A stretch of 64,000 bases of DNA. It comes from Cladocopium goreaui. Taxonomy: Eukaryota > Sar > Dinophyceae > Suessiales > Symbiodiniaceae. The translations under genes and the position numbers were made by a program. Location: positions 62,001 through 126,000 of the forward strand of contig CAMXCT020001410.1 in the NCBI GenBank assembly GCA_947184155.2, written 5' to 3'. This document shows, piece after piece, positions 3,084 to 64,000 of this stretch. The notes below the pieces were generated by a model, which was not told the DNA's origin, made no database searches, and saw nothing but the letters and a program-made list of their open reading frames with translations. Each line of letters starts with the position of its first letter. Position 1 is the stretch's first letter.

Positions 3084-4434
3084 ATATATATATATACATA
3101 TACACATATGAATATGCATATATCATATATCTATATATGTATATATGCATATATATATATATATATGTACATACGAATGAAGCAAGGTTTCCTGTAGATT
3201 TTCCTTCAACCAAGACATAGCCTGGAATCCTACTCAGGTGCGGATTGTCCAACGATGCCGGCGGCGAACGATTGCTGATGGCCGGGCATGATGTGCCCTG
3301 ACCGTTTTTTTGTTTATGGTCAAACTGCTTGGGTTTGTCCAAAAACGGATGGCCACAACAGCAATTTTGATAGGGAACATGATGACAAATGATAAGCTAT
3401 TTGGGGATAGTATGTTTTCAGAGAATTCATCTATAAATTTAAATGGCTGATTTTCGACTACCAGGGTACACTACCTGAAGGTACTGGTTCAGAAAGTATG
3501 TGAAAAAGAGGTTGGAATGGGACCATGAGAATGGGGGAATGGATATTCAGGTATACCGGTTACTGTTTCTGTGTGAACACTAGGGCTTCCGCGATAATTA
3601 TTGACGTATACCGTATGCCCAGATGATCATTGGAGAATAATCACTTGGAATGGGCTGCCCCTTTCAAGTTTCGGATTTTCACAGATGACCCCCTAAAATT
3701 GAGCGGACTGAACAGGATTTTACCGTCGGTTTCCTGGTCCAGTGGCCGGATCAGAGTATTGCCTGCATCCGCGCTCTGAGGATAGCGAGAATTGGTTCTC
3801 CCAGGGTTTCTACATGATCCCTCGCCCGAGCACCAAGAGCACCAGGGTTTCCAAAACCCCGGAGGTTGTGTGATTGCACCAAGTCGTCCCAAGGCAAGGC
3901 TTAAAAGGCCAACTCGCAAAGTAGCTGGGTCCTGTTTTTTTGAGCCTGACCAGGGGGTAGCTATAGCTACCCAATTCCAATGGATTATCATATATTTTAT
4001 CATCACTTCACCATTCAAAAAGCCATTTTGATCCATTTTTGGGTATCCAGCAAATTTTCAGACACCTCCCATATCTATCAGAATATTGATGATGTATCCC
4101 ATTGATTCCCATTCTATATCCCATGAAATCCCCACAACAAAAGCCATGACATATCCCCATTAAGTCACCACTAACATCCATTAAATCACCATCAACACAC
4201 CAAGAAATCACCATTAACATCCATTAACATCCATTAACATCCATTAACATCCATTAAATCACCATCAACACACCAAGAAATCACCATTAACATCCATTAA
4301 CATGCATTACATCACCACTAACTTCCATACTTATGAAATCTCCATTCCTCTAAGGCGCCGATGTAGCCAATGTCACCACCATGGCACTGCTGCATGCCCC
4401 GGCGGATGCCATGCGATTCGACCTTTGTGCCAAG
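595..4434 (+). CDS. Atypical short-chain dehydrogenase (NmrA-like NAD(P)-binding), multi-exon, partial
   Basis: Four exons read as a Rossmann-fold NAD(P)-binding protein of the atypical SDR/NmrA type. Exon 595-663 gives AVEWQGVKNQVETFL, the helix that carries the 'G-x-K/R-N-L-V' pattern. Exon 2149-2219 gives FYKLLAESYLASAGVPFSIV, the YxxxK-derived helix plus the 'G-v-p-f-t-I-v-r-P' strand. Exon 3238-3292 gives CGLSNDAGGERLLMAGHD, and exon 4355-4434 gives DVANVTTMALLHAPADAMRF, the usual C-terminal 'R-x-D-V-A' helix. The second exon ends CC before a GC donor and the third begins with G after CAG, so joining them rebuilds the family's V-K-P-C-G-L. The N-terminal GxxGxxG exon and the LVSS-type exon were not found, nor was a stop. 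The substrate cannot be named. MITEs lie between exons and 46 bases after the last one. Confidence 0.72.
664..2148. other. Intron of the dehydrogenase gene
   Basis: It contains a hairpin MITE at 718-821, AT-rich spacer, and (TA)n near 2017-2045. Short open frames around 1594-2044 on both strands overlap each other and show no family resemblance. The missing strand-5 exon of the dehydrogenase should be here but I could not identify it. Confidence 0.4.
718..821. mobile_element. Hairpin MITE, CCCTCTGGT family, copy 1
   Basis: Starts TACCCTCTGG and ends CCAGAGGGTA, so TA flanks a perfect CCCTCTGG terminus. The two halves are near-complete inverted repeats (element about 104 bp). The core appears in the orientation opposite to the copies at 5541 and 31559. 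It lies in an intron. Confidence 0.85.
2370..2615. repeat. ATATGATATATG satellite
   Basis: Degenerate tandem array of ATGATAT units with interspersed ATGACAT and ATGTATG variants. Long minus-strand frames across it (repeats of Y-H-I-S) are artefacts of the array. Confidence 0.85.
2771..2870. mobile_element. Foldback element, CAGGAATC arms
   Basis: CAGGAATCGTAAGTGG at the left is matched by CCACTTATGATTCCTG at the right (one mismatch), with further pairing of CACCCCAG near the centre. About 100 bp, non-autonomous, in the intron between dehydrogenase exons 2 and 3. Confidence 0.65.
3015..3170. repeat. (TATC)n and (TA)n microsatellite
   Basis: TATC tetranucleotide run near 3050-3081 inside TATA/CATA repeats. 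It ends about 70 bases before the acceptor of the dehydrogenase exon at 3238. Confidence 0.85.
4202..4310. repeat. CATCCATTAA minisatellite
   Basis: About 10-bp unit CATCCATTAA repeated five or more times, plus a duplicated longer block (ATCACCATCAACACACCAAG at about 4188 and 4258). It sits just upstream of the dehydrogenase exon at 4355. Confidence 0.7.
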
Positions 4435-5645: not shown

Positions 5646-7157
5646 TGTTCCTGCGTTGTTTCCTGAATTTCCATTGAAACCAATCTGAATTCTCTTGATT
5701 CTCCGAGTGGTGAGGACGCGCTAATGCCGTGGCAGCGTGCTGCGTCTGAAGCGGTCGTCTGAGTTGTTGGCAGATCCCGGTAGAAAGCCTCCGCACTGGA
5801 CGAGTGAACATGATGTTTTCAAGGCGTTAAAAACACCCCCAAATAGTGCTAGCAAGAGTACCAACGCTTACAACCATTATGAACACGTCCATCAGCGATT
5901 CTCCGCGCTCCGACAGCGCGCCCCAATCTGAAAAAGTTGCATGGTGCAGGAAGGGGCCGTCTAGATAGGTAAGTTGCTCCTAACCCTAAAAACAACTACG
6001 TAGGTATAGATAGGATGTATGGTGGATACATATAATTTTGTTTGTATAGAAATCGACTAGTTTGTTTTTATGTTTTAAAGATTTTTTGACTGCCAACTTA
6101 CAACTGTGACCCTTCCTTTGGACTATTTCGAAAAGGTTGGTTAAATAGCAACTGGGGATTTCCTTAGCTGCACATGGCCATGTATGGCCAGCAGGTCATG
6201 TGCTGAGCTGCAAAATTGGGTACCCAGGATGGAACCTTTTTTGGTTTCATTGGTGGATCGGTGGATCAGATTGATATTGCCAGGATGGATTGCCTAACGA
6301 AATTTATTATGGCCAGCCAGTCACCATTTTACATTGAAGTTGTGTACTTCCGTTCATGAAGGTGCCCGAAATTTCGGCCCCTTTTTCAGACTTTCCATCA
6401 GTCAATTTTTCATGAAGCCAGCTCTCAAGGTGGTGCTAATCGGAGCAGTGATAGCATTATGGATCGGATTGGATGCCCCAACCACCTTCCCATTGGTTCC
6501 CATTGGTTCCCATTGGTTCCCATTGGTTCCCATTGGTTCCCATTGGGTACATGGTGACTCGCTGGCCCAAAAAGGCCAACGGCAGTCATGGGTTCTGAAA
6601 TCCTTTTGTTTCGGGGTCCTGACATACTAAACATTACTAAACTACTTTGCTGGTGAAGGAAATACTTGTTTTCAGAACTACCTTCAAGTACCAAGAGCAA
6701 CGTCCAACCATTTTTGATGAAGTGAGCCTCAACTACCAGTATACAACAACCGTTCACACAATGTATTTAGCTCATGTGGTCTCAATGTTCCATCCGTATT
6801 TAGTTTGGTTGATGACCCAGATTGACCAACAAGCCGCCAACCAGGTAGTTGTACAGATCTTTCTCAGCATAAATTGTTATTGTTGACTGATGTTGATGCC
6901 TTTCACTTTTTTCTCATGAAGCATGGTAAAACCAGACTCTGTCTGGCACAAGAAAACACCCCAACAGACCTTCTGCAAACCGGCAGCGGAAAGCAGTTGA
7001 CACCATTTTTAGAGCAATTAAGCTTTTGCGAAGAATTCTTTGGGGTGTACAAGCCACGGGTTTCATGCTGGTGCTTTCTCAGCAGGTTTTGTGAACCATC
7101 ACATCCATGATCTTTCGTACATCTTTGAAAAGCTCCAGACTTGACACACCCGGCGTA
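5646..7157. other. Spacer, no supported gene
   Basis: Contains the CCCATTGGTT minisatellite at 6488-6547. Short open frames (for example 6334-6630 and 6647-7110) show no family resemblance and no clear acceptor-bounded exon. The 5' exons of the WD40 gene should lie here. Confidence 0.35.
6488..6547. repeat. CCCATTGGTT minisatellite
   Basis: Six perfect or near-perfect tandem copies of the 10-bp unit CCCATTGGTT. Confidence 0.9.
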
Positions 7158-58673: not shown

Positions 58674-59016
58674 AAAAGAGATCCACAAAATGACCCAGTG
58701 ACTTTTGCAATCTGTTCCAGTCATTTCCAGTCCGTAGCAGGTACGACCACGACTGTTGCCCTCGTGTTTCGACTTTTAAGCGCTCCCAACTGGAGATCTG
58801 AATGTTTGGGCAGATCAGAGGCGCCTTCGGAGAAGGAGTTCCGAGACCTGGAAATGGTGGGCATTGTCATTACATTCCGAGTTTTTATTCCATGATATTC
58901 CCACAACAACATCCCCATTCTTCCAGGGTGTTGAACACTGCTCATATGGGTTTGTAAATGTGGGGACGACTCACCGTGTTTGATGGTTGAGAATCGAGAA
59001 CATCAGTTTCCCTACA

Positions 59017-59105
59017 TGGGCTTGTCTGAAAATCGGGTACGCCAAAATTTGAAATAGTACTCTGCGGGTATCCCACGGGGTATCCCCCATTTTCAGACAA
59101 ACCCA
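59017..59105. mobile_element. Foldback element with GGGCTTGTCTGAAAAT arms
   Basis: TGGGCTTGTCTGAAAATCGGG at the left pairs with CCCCATTTTCAGACAAACCCA at the right, one mismatch in the outer 17 bp. 89 bp. It ends 42 bases before the Rep/transposase element. Confidence 0.75.
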
Positions 59106-59147
59106 AATAGTTATGGTTGGTTATATAAATAAAAAAAAATATATATA

Positions 59148-59430
59148 CTTCAGGAGGAAGAAAGTTTATGTTTCTTGAAAGCTTGACAAAGCACCCATGT
59201 CGGTCAACGGTGGATCACATTTCCAAGTCCATTTCGTGTGGCAGGTGTGGGATGGTCAATTATCACCCGCTTTTCAATCTATAAGATTATAAGCTTTTGG
59301 AGGGTGGAAAGTCGACCGGGGTACGACACAGCTCCATGCTAGGATTCTACGGGGAAAGGGTGTGCAGAAGAAGAAACCAAACAAGTTCACTGTCGGAAGC
59401 TCAACAAGCGCAACTTTTGTCCTACCAGTG
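59148..59430. repeat. Left 283-bp direct repeat of the Rep/transposase element
   Basis: Aligns without gaps to 62585-62867. The only differences are T/C at 59171, T/C at 59211 and C/A at 59275. It lies downstream (3') of the transposase gene and may supply its terminator or polyadenylation signal. Confidence 0.97.
59158..59176. other. Candidate stem-loop near the edge of the left repeat
   Basis: AAGAAA-GTTTATG-TTTCTT can form a 6-bp stem with a 7-base loop. In the right repeat (62595-62613) one substitution shortens the stem to five. A stem-loop with an AT-rich loop is where a Rep would nick, but no canonical CRESS nonanucleotide is present, so this is only a candidate origin. Confidence 0.3.
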
Positions 59431-59505
59431 CGTCACGGCACAGGTGTAGCATTGCAGAGAAAGAGGATGGACGTTTCCCAAAATCCTCAATCGACAACAG
59501 GCACA

Positions 59506-60681
59506 TTAGCCAGAGGATGCAGCACCACTTTTGCGGACTACCTCCCGGCAGGTTTTGATGTAGCCTTTGGCGATCCGCTTGGCTGCATTTTGTGCGTGTG
59601 CAGATTTCAGCAGATTCTTGATTCTGGTCTTGTATGCCAACTTGCCAATCCACGGCCTGTTCTTCAATGCATCTTGGAGATCTAACTTATTCAGCCGCTT
59701 GCGCAAGTATGACCAGAATCTCTCAATTGGATTTAAATCAGGTGATTTGGCAGGAATCCTCCATAAATGTATTTTGGCCTTCCGGTGCTCAGCTCGGCAA
59801 TCACTTGACACCAAGAAGGCCTCATTGTCGCAAAGCACATGCCACGGTCCATCCTCTTTGACCGGGCATAGGCTCTTGATTGCAGATGCTACCTTTCCAG
59901 CTTGCAAGACACGGATCCACTCAGCCTTGGTGAGCTTCTTCCTTGCATGGAATACTACAGTTGCAAAACCTCCTTCGCTCAAGCCACCCCACAGAGGGAT
60001 GCATCTATCCAAGGGGCTCTGCTTTGCGAAGCAATCCTGCCCCGCCAGAGAAGGCTCTAGCCTTTCTGACTTCAACCGCCACATGTGAGTTTGGCCAGAG
60101 CGAAGGTAGTTTAGCCTGTCAGTCGGATTTTTGGGAGGCATGGTTAGGACGCAGCCATCCATGGAGAAAGACAACTTCTGCCGCAGCTGACGCGGCCCGA
60201 GTGCCACGACAGCTTCGGCAAATGCCTTCCTCTCGCTCATTTGCTGGGGAGTGTACTTGCGCTTTTGCCCTCGAGGTAGCCATCTGTAGCCTTTTGAGTG
60301 CAAGAACTTGCGGATGGTGCTTTGATCAACTGCTACACCACGGGCCCGGGCCAGCTCAGCTTGCAAAGACTCTGTGGTGCACATCCCTTGCTTCCTCATC
60401 CTCCGCAAGGAGCGCAACACAAATCCTTGCGTATCTGCTGTCAGCTTCCAAGGCCGACGGCCACAATTGTTGTAAGCAGTTTTTTTCCTGCCACGTGACA
60501 TTGAAAATTGTTTGTAGTACTGACAGCAAGTCCTTGGAGATGGCCGCTTGCCAGCCAAATTTTTCACTTGTGCAGCTATGTCCACAAATGATAAGCCTTG
60601 CACATCCCGCAGAATCACCAGTTTGCGTTGGTTTTGGAAATCCAATCCTGGAGGGTGTATGTTTTCACACACCAAGACCAT
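59506..60681 (-). CDS. Tc1/mariner-IS630-type DD34E transposase
   Basis: The product cuts and joins DNA ends at TA targets. Counting from an in-frame TTG at 60729 there are 407 codons; the first ATG is codon 17 (60681), leaving 391 residues. I use that ATG. Residues about 31-75 form a first helix-turn-helix (LSFVDIAAQVKNLAG). Residues about 90-155 form a second DNA-binding unit (VDQSTIRKFLHSKGYRWLP). The RNase-H-like catalytic core has D191 in SFSMDGC, D301 in HVLCDNEAF and E336 in SPDLNPIERFW (numbering from the TTG). Exactly 34 residues lie between D301 and E336, hence DD34E. The frame is intact. It is downstream of rep on the same strand and probably shares the element's mobility. A plus-strand 297-codon frame over it is a shadow. 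Confidence 0.9.
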   Translation of the reverse strand: MVLVCENIHPPGLDFQNQRKLVILRDVQGLSFVDIAAQVKNLAGKRPSPRTCCQYYKQFSMSRGRKKTAYNNCGRRPWKLTADTQGFVLRSLRRMRKQGMCTTESLQAELARARGVAVDQSTIRKFLHSKGYRWLPRGQKRKYTPQQMSERKAFAEAVVALGPRQLRQKLSFSMDGCVLTMPPKNPTDRLNYLRSGQTHMWRLKSERLEPSLAGQDCFAKQSPLDRCIPLWGGLSEGGFATVVFHARKKLTKAEWIRVLQAGKVASAIKSLCPVKEDGPWHVLCDNEAFLVSSDCRAEHRKAKIHLWRIPAKSPDLNPIERFWSYLRKRLNKLDLQDALKNRPWIGKLAYKTRIKNLLKSAHAQNAAKRIAKGYIKTCREVVRKSGAASSG

Positions 60682-61070
60682 GGCCGAGAGAATTTGCGTA
60701 TATAGCAAGCCCTTGGTGGTCTGAGCCAAAGGGATCAGAGATTCGTAACATGCTCAACAGCCTCAGATGGAGATGTGTCGGCCAGTCAGTGAAGCCTCCA
60801 CAAGTCCAGTTCCCAGAGGTGCCTTGCATGCGCTGACGTATATACATCTTTGTGACAGAAAGTTGCAACAAAGTTGATTTTGGCAGGTGGGTTTTGGTTT
60901 GTACAGGTGGAGCATGTGTCGTACCCCGGGCTAGATTGGTGGTTCTAGGCTGTATCTCAGAAACTGGCAACAGAAACCCTGCACACTCAAGCCCCAGCTT
61001 TTTCCAAGCACATTGACTGTTGTTGGCATTAGCTTGACACCACAGAACCGCTTGAATGAGTGCATGTGGC
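60682..61070. other. Gap between rep and transposase genes
   Basis: About 390 bp. A minus-strand frame of 229 codons (60665-61354) crosses it but overlaps the end of rep out of frame and has no family character. No clear promoter is visible; a downstream promoter or trans-splicing signal for the transposase could be here. Confidence 0.4.
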
Positions 61071-62438
61071 CTAAGAGGAGGATGGCGGCCATTCAACCAC
61101 AACACGATTCTGTGGTTTACTGAGCCAATCATTGGCCTCCAAGTAACCTCGGTTCTTAGTGGTGTAATTGATGGTGACCACTGTGGGAACTTTGAACAAA
61201 TACTTGGTATAGAAGCAAGTCCCTCCCTGCGTGGTTGCGAATTCAATGCGACTGTCATATTTGCCCTGAACCTTCTCCTGGTGTGAAACCAAGAAGTCAA
61301 GGTCCCGGACATCATCAAGGATGAGGGCATCGTGCACCCCTCGCTTGAATTCAACCATCTTCGCTGGGAAGACCTCGCTGCTGCCCACCTTCAACTCAAG
61401 CGGCTTGTGGAAGAGGCTCTTGGCGTATTCCGTCTTCCCTGAAGCTGATGCACCAAGCAAAATGAGAAGAGGATACCTCAACAAGTCAGTCTTGAAGTGC
61501 TCCAGCCAAGCTGACACAGCTGGCACAGCTGGCACAGCTGGGAAAGGCTTATAAATTGATGGATTGGAGCGGATCCGTTTCACTGTAGCCGCAAGTTCAG
61601 CTTCCTCAGCCTGCGCTTCAGACCATGCTTCGCATGCATCCAAGTTCCTCTTGCGGGCTTGGACACCATCGCGGGTCAGATAGAGGTATTCTTCATAAGT
61701 GGCATGGTCCAGCTTGTAATGCTTCCAAAGAGCCTCTGGCCACTTCCCTTGTACCCTGTATGTGGCCGCACCATCTTGGGTGCACCATGCCGGCACGTAG
61801 TTCCCGGTGACGCACTCGTGCCCACCTTCATCGACCACAGTGCCAAGCTTCTTTGCGAAGACATAGAAGAAGCCGCGATCGATGCTCTGTTGTGGGTTTC
61901 GCCTACCAACACCCTCGCCCAAGTAATCATGGGCGTTGACATTGGGATGGATGCCTTCAAAGGCAAATGCGCGGCTGCTTCTGTCTTGCTTCACCCAGAA
62001 CTGCAGCATCAGGTGCACATGCAAACGGCCAGACTTGCAAGTCTCCAAAGTGGCACACCAATACTTCACATTCCAAGACGACATGTTGGCTTTCACACAG
62101 TTGACAAACCTGCGCCATTGGTCCAAGGAGGTGAAGGACTGATAGGTGAGCAGCACAGCAGAACTTGCAATGCGGTACACTGCTTCGTGGCCCGCTGGTC
62201 TGCCTTGGGGGCCCTTGTTGTTCAACGCCTGTTCCCAAGCGACCTTTGCAGCACGCAGGCTTTTCACGGCCTGACCATCGGTGCGGCCCCGTGCTTTGCG
62301 TAGGACTGTGCCATACGCTGCACGCAGGCATGGTGGGTCTGCATCTCTGTTAAGACTTGGCTCTACGTTCAAGACGGCTGCCACCGCCAGGAGCGCAGAC
62401 ACCAATGCACGCTGACAAAGTTGCAGATGAGACACCAT
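61071..62438 (-). CDS. rep: CRESS-DNA-type Rep: HUH endonuclease plus superfamily 3 helicase
   Basis: 455 residues from a true ATG with an in-frame stop upstream at about 62525. Residues 95-102 VLLTYQSF are HUH motif I. Residues 137-146 GRLHVHLMLQ hold the H-V-H metal site (motif II). An F-E-G-I-H-P-N-V-N segment at 160-168 resembles the GRS region of geminivirus/genomovirus-type Reps. The presumed motif III tyrosine is Y192 in FFYVFAKKLG. The helicase has Walker A GASASGKT (329-336), Walker B ALILDD (371-376) and motif C VVTIN (420-424). A Pro/Val/Ala-Val run (AVPAVPAV, 301-308) links the domains. Such proteins nick one strand, join to its 5' end and drive rolling-circle replication. The first ~90 residues are outside the usual family. 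Intronless and intact, unlike all neighbours. Confidence 0.9.
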   Translation of the reverse strand: MVSHLQLCQRALVSALLAVAAVLNVEPSLNRDADPPCLRAAYGTVLRKARGRTDGQAVKSLRAAKVAWEQALNNKGPQGRPAGHEAVYRIASSAVLLTYQSFTSLDQWRRFVNCVKANMSSWNVKYWCATLETCKSGRLHVHLMLQFWVKQDRSSRAFAFEGIHPNVNAHDYLGEGVGRRNPQQSIDRGFFYVFAKKLGTVVDEGGHECVTGNYVPAWCTQDGAATYRVQGKWPEALWKHYKLDHATYEEYLYLTRDGVQARKRNLDACEAWSEAQAEEAELAATVKRIRSNPSIYKPFPAVPAVPAVSAWLEHFKTDLLRYPLLILLGASASGKTEYAKSLFHKPLELKVGSSEVFPAKMVEFKRGVHDALILDDVRDLDFLVSHQEKVQGKYDSRIEFATTQGGTCFYTKYLFKVPTVVTINYTTKNRGYLEANDWLSKPQNRVVVEWPPSSS

Positions 62439-62584
62439 AGCGACAATGAAGAAGGAAAGGGCGCTGCAAGGAAAAGCTTTGAAGCCAGAGGATACAGATG
62501 TTATGTGGATGATAGACCAAGCTCAAGAACGTGCAGCAAGCAGCAACGGACTCGACAATTCCCACTAAATATGCTTTTTTTACC
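62439..62584. promoter_or_regulatory. Upstream region of rep
   Basis: About 146 bp between the rep start and the right 283-bp repeat, so the repeat itself is likely to carry the promoter for leftward transcription. No TATA-like word is convincing, though on the minus strand an AGCATATTTAG lies near 62566-62576. Confidence 0.3.
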
Positions 62585-62867
62585 CTTCAGGAGGAAGAAA
62601 GTTTATGCTTCTTGAAAGCTTGACAAAGCACCCATGTCGGTCAACGGCGGATCACATTTCCAAGTCCATTTCGTGTGGCAGGTGTGGGATGGTCAATTAT
62701 CACCCGCTTTTAAATCTATAAGATTATAAGCTTTTGGAGGGTGGAAAGTCGACCGGGGTACGACACAGCTCCATGCTAGGATTCTACGGGGAAAGGGTGT
62801 GCAGAAGAAGAAACCAAACAAGTTCACTGTCGGAAGCTCAACAAGCGCAACTTTTGTCCTACCAGTG
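62585..62867. repeat. Right 283-bp direct repeat of the Rep/transposase element
   Basis: About 98.9% identical to 59148-59430 (3 substitutions, no gaps). Upstream of rep and followed directly by TATATAC. Confidence 0.97.
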
Positions 62868-62962
62868 TATATACACAGTATATACATCATTTTTTTCTAT
62901 CTTTATATCCCTATTAGATCCCCATTGCATCTCTCTAAATCCCGCATGGCTCATGTTTTCAG

Positions 62963-63172: not shown

Positions 63173-64000
63173 AAGTGAAATGACATGAAATGAAATGACA
63201 TGAAATGAAATGAAACAAAAGGACATGCAATGAATGAATGAATGAAATGAATGAATGAATGAACGAATGAATGAATGAATGAATGAATGAATGAATGAAA
63301 TGAAATGAATGAATGAATGAATGAAATGAAACGAATGAATGAAATGAATGAATGAATGAATGAATGAAATGAAATGAAATGAAATGAAATGAAATGAAAT
63401 GAATGAATGAATGAATGAAATGAATGAATGAATGAATGAATGAATGAATGAAATGAATGAATGAATGAATGAATGAATGAATGAAAGAAATGAATGAATG
63501 AATGAATGAATGAATGAATGAAATGAATGAATGAATGAATGAATGAATGAAATGAAATGAATGAAATGAATGAATGAATGAATGAATGAATAAATGAAAT
63601 GAAATGAATGAATGAATGAATGAATGAAATGAAATGAATGAATGAATGAATGAGTGAGTGAATGAATGAATGAATGCATGAATGAAATAAATGAATGAAA
63701 TGAATGAATGAATGAATGAATGAATGCGTGAATGAATGAATGAATGAATGACTGAATGAATGAAATGAAATGAATGAATGAATGAAATGAATGAATGAAT
63801 GAATGATTGACTGAATGAATGAATGAATGAAATGAAATGAAATGAAATGACATGAATGAATGAATGAAATGAAATGAAATGAAATGAAATGAATGAATGA
63901 ATGAATGAATGAATGAAATGAAAGAAAGAAAGAATGAATGAATGAATGGATGGATGGATGGATGAATGAATCAATGAATCAATGAATCAATGAATCAATG
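63173..64000. repeat. GAAT/GAAAT microsatellite, runs off the window
   Basis: About 830 bp of mixed GAAT, GAAAT and minor GGAT and CAAT units to the end of the window. The two long minus-strand frames (287 and 300 codons of S-F-I-H) are artefacts of a frame-compatible repeat. Confidence 0.97.

Follow-up and report, generated by a model that had tools for sequence, protein, structure and literature searches.

The window analyzed, a 64,000-nucleotide stretch of contig C1410 from the dinoflagellate Cladocopium goreaui (C1410:62001–126000), harbors a mobile element of 3720 bp at window positions 59148–62867, in which genes predicted to encode a CRESS-type Rep and a DD34E transposase lie on one strand between two matched direct repeats (DRs). 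The best explanation of this arrangement is probably that a circle or concatemer made by Rep serves as the substrate of transposition. A sequence-only reading had described the intact Rep, with its HUH and SF3 motifs, and the intact transposase within the repeats, and this description was confirmed by the motifs, the alignments and a comparison of the repeats. It had also proposed that the element is copied as a circle and inserted by its own transposase; this proposal gained support, with the TA flanks and the ends directly observed and the circular stage put forward here as the likely intermediate.

The two DRs (59148–59430 and 62585–62867, plus strand) are 283 bp each, 98.9% identical with three substitutions, and are spaced 3437 bp apart. 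Both genes are carried on the minus strand between them, with Rep (61071–62438, 455 aa) located upstream of the transposase (59506–60681, 391 aa). The left DR is bordered by an L end on the left and an R end on the right; the L end of the element (CTTCAGGAGG...) occupies 59148–59166, and the right DR terminates in the R end (...CCTACCAGTG). The genome assembly searched comprises 1,165,616,438 bases. A total of 398 matches to the element DNA were obtained, and 20 stretches (L030–L049) were picked by hand among the matches listed; these fetched loci together with the window contain 41 full DR copies, 34 of which are distinct. The Rep search gave 93 scored matches from 761 candidates, and the 27 candidates of the transposase search were all scored and gave 17 matches.

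The ends of the copies were read from the 20 fetched stretches, with L036 left out as it has no clean end. The examined copies end either at DR position 1 or at DR position 283, with TA present before 17 of 18 left ends and after 18 of 19 right ends (59146–59147 and 62868–62869 in the window). In an offset control of the 15 copies with both ends, 14 left and 15 right flanks had TA at offset 0, and at most seven left and 11 right flanks had it at any other offset, where (TA)n-rich flanks repeat the pair. The 30-bp flanks differ among the copies, indicating separate insertions. The ends that had been assigned from the window alone are those at which independent copies stop, flanked by TA, so they are real ends of the element and not an accident of assembly. 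The inner DR edges are of a different kind, as in the eleven copies listed no TA is found there, and TTTACC, CGTACC or TGTAC(C/T) precedes the L end and CGTCAC (once CGTGAC) follows the R end. Together, the outer TA and the conserved inner edges indicate that L and R have fixed positions on a circular sequence, the outer flanks being target DNA.

These inner edges also bear on the view that the insert is a composite transposon, in which two independent 283-bp elements resembling miniature inverted-repeat transposable elements flank both genes and mobilize them jointly. A lone DR, as found at L030 and L031, is indeed flanked by TA like a complete small transposon. However, the inner DR edges of the eleven copies listed share one conserved context without TA and tandem copies share their DRs, and a composite origin is considered very improbable. 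The outer tips of L and R match each other at 12 of 19 positions as an imperfect inverted repeat (P ~0.001 against random ends and 0.011 against TA-flanked ends).

The inserts consist of the DR alone or of the DR with one, two or three units, and some are irregular. A lone DR was met twice, and the one-unit inserts comprise the window element (3720 bp) and short derivatives of 803, 703, 703 and 1042 bp. A dimer of 7006 bp on contig C4 contains two units that differ at only two of 3361 positions and carry open Rep and transposase frames in both, and an insert of 1843 bp on C739 contains three 520-bp units and a DR. The shortest derivatives retain element positions 1–324 and 3343–3720, that is, the DR with ~41 and ~95 bp of inner flank (59431–59471 and 62490–62584 in the window), and the retained flanks likely mark a cis-acting region upstream of Rep, with 62490–62584 being a candidate part of the replication origin. 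The non-autonomous insert L040 (C5967, 1304–4737) is built of about twelve 240-bp tandem repeats without DR and has one DR at each end; its repeats suggest that units without cutting sites were still amplified.

A series of this kind would be expected from the following scheme. The two genes and one DR would form a circular unit of ~3.4 kb. Rep would nick an origin within the DR or next to it, and rolling-circle replication would yield circles and head-to-tail concatemers. The DD34E transposase would recognize the L and R ends, which would be only 283 bp apart on the circle, and on a concatemer it might pair the L of one unit with the R of a later unit, cut there and insert the product at TA, so that inserts of the DR with 0, 1, 2 or 3 units would arise. 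From a full insert with two DRs, Rep could start in one DR and stop in the other, thereby releasing a new circle. Partial-dimer geminivirus clones release a circle in such a manner.

The same 0, 1, 2, 3 series can be yielded by unequal crossing-over, on which another explanation relies. According to this, the element is an ordinary cut-and-paste transposon of the IS630/Tc1 type whose termini are 283-bp DRs by chance and whose Rep is a passenger or regulator, and the DR-alone and tandem copies arose by crossing-over in the manner of solo long terminal repeats. The explanation covers the TA insertion, the transposase and the positions of the ends, and leaves unexplained why the terminal repeat bears both an L and an R end. 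It also has to face the selection on Rep, which is as strong as that on the transposase. Comparison of the window with C4, C2234 and C3580 gave ratios of nonsynonymous to synonymous substitution rates (dN/dS) of 0.125–0.127 for Rep and 0.149–0.159 for the transposase, with similar dS, and both genes are under purifying selection.

Linkage of the two genes, on which the sequence-only reading had made itself depend, was found throughout the subfamily, and further copies with the same gene pair and ends, which it had proposed to look for, were present. Rep-transposase units occur in the window, twice on C4, and on C2234, C3580 and C3954, making five besides the window, though the C3954 unit is decayed, the Rep of C3580 has one stop and the C2234 unit lacks the left DR. 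The 17 transposase matches comprise five full copies (C1410, C3580, C4 twice and C2234), nine pieces of the broken C3954 copies and three remote matches (24–45%), and the five full and the broken C3954 transposases all lie beside a Rep. Likewise, the six Reps with 84–100% identity among the 93 scored matches (C1410, C4 twice, C3580, C2234 and C3954) coincide with the transposase sites.

The pairing was also observed outside this genome, where the best 120 of 347 Rep relatives were considered. After removal of two of 120 rows for Rep and one of 119 for the transposase, which had no contig, 118 by 118 rows were compared, and nine Rep/transposase pairs lay on contigs of equal size able to hold both genes; in 60 controls with sizes shifted by 1–30, the mean was 0.4 and the maximum three. 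One of the nine (P0115/P0183, identities 48 and 61) is a probable coincidence, so that eight are left without it, and three further equal-size matches cannot hold both genes. In addition, four of 238 proteins are gene models running from Rep into the transposase, always with Rep first. The Mantel correlation between Rep and transposase protein distances was 0.947 for nine pairs (the window and the eight), 0.737 for ten pairs when the doubtful one was added, and 0.775 when the four joined models were added as well (p 0.0001 in each case). Rep and transposase have thus co-diverged, and their pairing is old and congruent. Taken with the selection, this co-divergence suggests that both genes work for the element and have long traveled together, and both observations speak against the ordinary cut-and-paste explanation.

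An exact 15-bp inverted pair (CCGGGGTACGACACA, 59316–59330 on the plus strand in the left DR, and its inverted copy, 60915–60929 on the minus strand between the genes) sits away from the ends of the element. It was considered as the transposon ends and dropped once the copies were seen to stop at the edges of the DR. The site is conserved, each of the 20 loci L030–L049 carrying it at least once with no more than two changes; L032, L034 and L035 likewise carry one between the genes with one to two changes, and a motif scan located a third copy in the right DR of the window element (62753–62767, plus strand). In viral contigs the motif was met in 11 stretches with one match each, taken as chance.

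This inverted pair flanks the transposase open reading frame (ORF) and could suggest that only the 1.6-kb transposase piece between the two sites is mobile, the whole being an endogenized CRESS virus or plasmid, of which slightly more than one genome length was integrated by chance and into which a Tc1-type transposon later jumped; a terminally redundant insert of a circle would look alike. As to the ends this view is refuted, as the copies end at TA-flanked DR edges and not at the 15-bp sites. All 14 transposase matches of the subfamily lie on contigs with a close Rep and none on a contig without one (the three remote matches at 24–45% are outside this count), and the old and congruent pairing speaks against it too, so that such an origin is scarcely credible.

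The genome carries a second lineage of Rep, which obeys the same rule with a transposase of the DDE_1 type. Of the 93 scored Reps, the remaining 87 have 49–51% identity, many with identical scores, and were sampled in twelve fetched stretches (L058–L069; C1002, C3463, C1362, C5917 and others); this second family is a far more abundant sister of the window element in this genome. An N-terminal HPD(K/R)GG motif was read in the Rep of each of the twelve stretches, and a DDE_1 transposase lies on the Rep strand in ten of them, the two without it being the single inserts C732 and C772. The tandem units measure 8193 or ~7468 bp where a repeat is seen. Unit positions 6031 and 4009 (4008 in C772) bound the two single inserts as well as the C1002 and C5917 arrays, and the one end seen in C1435 is at unit position 4009. 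TA was present at eight of nine ends. The single insert of C732 measures 6137 bp and adjoins a paralogous empty site, the change being from GAGCG-TA-AGTG to GAGCG-TA-element-TA-AGTG; an empty site was seen for the second family only. The C5917 array of 22,489 bp corresponds to the 6137-bp arc with 1.996 circles and contains three Reps, and the C1002 array of 32,890 bp, with four Reps, is bounded at the same unit positions. The 6137-bp arc contains Rep but not the DDE_1 gene, which is located between R and L, and only multimers therefore carry DDE_1.

In both families, the minimal arc from end to end does not include the transposase. The arc-plus-circles rule, in a family with another transposase and with a 6137-bp repeat that contains Rep and no transposase, is not explained by the ordinary cut-and-paste transposon with crossing-over, and neither is the observation that the units of an array are no more alike than units at different loci. 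Overall, that explanation is regarded as unlikely, and a Rep-made circle or concatemer as the transposition substrate is preferred. A broader reading, to which we lean slightly, is that dinoflagellates host "replicating transposons", that is, circular Rep replicons with transposase ends so positioned that the genes reach the chromosome only in multimers (concatemers derived from circles), which would make rolling-circle copying obligatory for transposition, with at least two TA-inserting transposases (DD34E and DDE_1) having been recruited and many of the Reps having the order J-HUH-SF3. In the Rep tree, both transposase partners are found among the J-domain Reps; the labels need two changes, of which the starred branches force only one. 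A check by eye of the 44 DDE_1 relatives against the Rep list turned up one equal size (2011), too short for both genes to fit.

Several observations weigh against the circle or concatemer as substrate. Neither a free circle nor a replication intermediate or nick site was seen, the circular stage being deduced from inserted copies, and the DR-alone and tandem forms could also stem from a single insertion followed by unequal crossing-over of its DRs. The 20 stretches examined were our own choice among the matches listed. Among them, the C3954 insert (5196 bp) has no inner DR, rearrangements are seen in C909 and C2236, one unit of C824 differs in length, and inner repeats of 240 bp without DR occur in several short derivatives. 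The left junction of C3580 is TG, and C909 is the right-end exception without TA, its match stopping one base short of the DR end with the last base differing. The DR folds no better than its shuffles (z 0.07 and −0.34), and a scan of the unit for the nonanucleotide NANTATTAC or TATTAC gave no match, though other nick sites are possible. Between C4 and C2234, Rep shows 5.5 nonsynonymous and 1.5 synonymous changes, a ratio of ~1.1, which at seven changes is too few to weigh. In the second family, the right junction of C772 has no TA, and the C1002 array equals the arc with 3.27 circles and has a further 2 kb of the DDE_1 region duplicated. Furthermore, units differ within arrays at 3–10 per 3595 positions and between loci at 3–17, so within-array differences are not smaller, which leaves the origin of each array from a single circle unproven and at the same time speaks against slow local growth of the arrays; assembly error in near-identical repeats may have contributed to this comparison.

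The assignment of the Rep fold is a prediction from alignment and profile matches, by which the protein would comprise a degenerate J-like N-terminus, a HUH endonuclease and an SF3-type helicase. The HUH motifs I–III and the SF3 helicase motifs of CRESS-DNA Reps are present across the 25 Reps aligned, in which H140, H142, Y192, K197, G334-K335-T336, D375-D376 and N424 do not vary and LLTYQ is mostly retained. Motif III reads YVxAxK (Y192 to K197), and the usual spacing of this motif is YxxK; Y192 is the candidate catalytic tyrosine, without certainty because of this wider spacing. The window Rep matched Gemini_AL1 weakly (0.018), and this family was matched in 14 of the 25 aligned members (best 0.0015), with DnaJ detected in 12 of the 25 (best 1e-5). 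Against solved structures, the Rep profile matched chains of replication-associated proteins (0.002 and 0.01) and DnaJ chains (from 0.008). An HPD motif was found in 79 of 122 Rep-matching proteins, all of them within the group of <57% identity, in which an HPDKGG J domain precedes HUH and SF3; the HPD has been lost from the window Rep. J-HUH-SF3 is also the domain order of the polyomavirus large T antigen, and these Reps bear on the origin of that architecture.

A pattern scan of IMG/VR viral contigs with Rep and with the Rep alignment revealed no relative, although such a scan is not a test for free DNA, and the plasmid and phage collections gave no Rep match. The search of genome contigs gave one relative, L001 (1–7582), labeled as a contig of a Cohaesibacter metagenome-assembled genome (assembler k141), in which an exact 141-bp overlap of the ends defines a circle or tandem unit of 7441 bp. 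It carries a broken J-domain Rep and a DDE_1 transposase and is probably eukaryotic DNA in a bacterial bin. The protein P0025 (eukprot s2657_g9.t3) is a gene model that fuses pieces of Rep and transposase with JmjC-type domains (PF08007, PF13621 and PF02373), perhaps a host gene joined by annotation or capture.

The transposase is likewise assigned from its motifs and profile matches to a putative IS630/Tc1-type fold. Its start was placed at the ATG at 60681, where the relatives begin, with the open frame reaching 60729; the transposases of C4 (twice), C2234 and C3580 have one stop in the aligned frame and none from the conserved ATG on. D191, D301 and E336 are invariant in the 27 transposases aligned, with 34 residues between D301 and E336, which defines DD34E. 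Pfam matches were obtained to DDE_3 (2.4e-11) and HTH_Tnp_Tc3_2 (1.8e-8), and the match to the IS630 model (2e-20) is below the model's own cut-off. Among solved structures, the Sleeping Beauty transposase is the sole relative by sequence (E 0.0001). The pattern scan of viral contigs gave no relative with the transposase alone, and nine short IS630-type matches with the transposase alignment (A2).

The element was compared with several known systems. Helitrons also harbor a HUH protein within a chromosomal mobile element; they encode a Rep protein with a PIF1-type helicase and insert between A and T without duplication, whereas the window element has SF3-type motifs, a DDE transposase and TA on both sides. 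The DDE_3 domain, the Tc3-type HTH, the DD34E triad and the TA insertion are shared with IS630/Tc1/mariner elements, from which the window element differs by its Rep, its long DR termini with imperfect inverted tips and its multimeric inserts. With CRESS-DNA viruses and Rep plasmids it shares a Rep of the HUH and SF3 type with LLTYQ, HxH and Walker motifs (PMC6668415), but it is chromosomal, has no recognized capsid gene and carries its own integration enzyme, and its relatives have an N-terminal J domain.

The sequence-only reading had stated that no named family has this layout, which was too strong. Liu et al. 2011 (PMC3198968) describe a "geminivirus-like transposon" of the truffle Tuber melanosporum whose Rep ORF is interrupted and whose two transposase ORFs are both broken, with terminal inverted repeats of 37 bp and no obvious target-site duplication, and thus the same pairing of a CRESS-type Rep ORF with transposase ORFs in a eukaryotic repeat family. 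The end anatomy is different, since, judged by that description rather than by its sequence, the window element is set apart by intact selected ORFs, DR ends with weak inverted tips, TA insertion and inserts of an arc with whole units. The truffle case shows that a Rep and a transposase together are not unique, suggesting a repeated origin of the pairing.

Teratorn, a piggyBac-herpesvirus composite of 180 kb from fish with herpesvirus replication genes and a piggyBac transposase, also joins a replicating circular genome with a cut-and-paste transposase, and its authors propose that copies of the transposon within rolling-circle concatemers allow integration of a unit that has a copy on each side (PMC10175614). 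In the present system there are one Rep and one DD34E or DDE_1 transposase in units of 3.4–8.2 kb. As in that scheme, the insert here is bounded by two transposase-end segments (the DR with its L and R ends, n = 0–3 units), and a replication step would precede its integration. The Rep-transposase pairing thus has a precedent in the decayed truffle element (PMC3198968), and a concatemer logic had been put forward for Teratorn (PMC10175614). Within the open-licence literature, no dinoflagellate Rep-transposase element was recognized, and as far as searched there, the intact selected form, the dinoflagellate host, the TA insertion with DR termini, the arc-plus-units rule in two families and the J-domain Reps are new.

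If the circle or concatemer is the substrate, one intact and selected element would unite a circular replicon of virus-like kind with a TA transposon of the cut-and-paste type, two strategies usually considered separately. Such an element could multiply outside the chromosome before insertion, which would explain the multimeric tandem inserts in a dinoflagellate genome, and it would provide a small system for testing the concatemer model of Teratorn.

Four further open frames of 173–297 aa overlap the Rep and transposase genes; no Pfam family was matched by them, and a capsid was not recognized, with no other capsid test made. Just left of the element, positions 59012–59110 form a 99-bp foldback with 26-nt arms of 85% complementarity, perhaps a separate small inverted-repeat element. 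About 300 bp to the right of the element, a long simple repeat of the (TGAA)n/(TGAAA)n type extends from 63168 to the end of the window at 64000.

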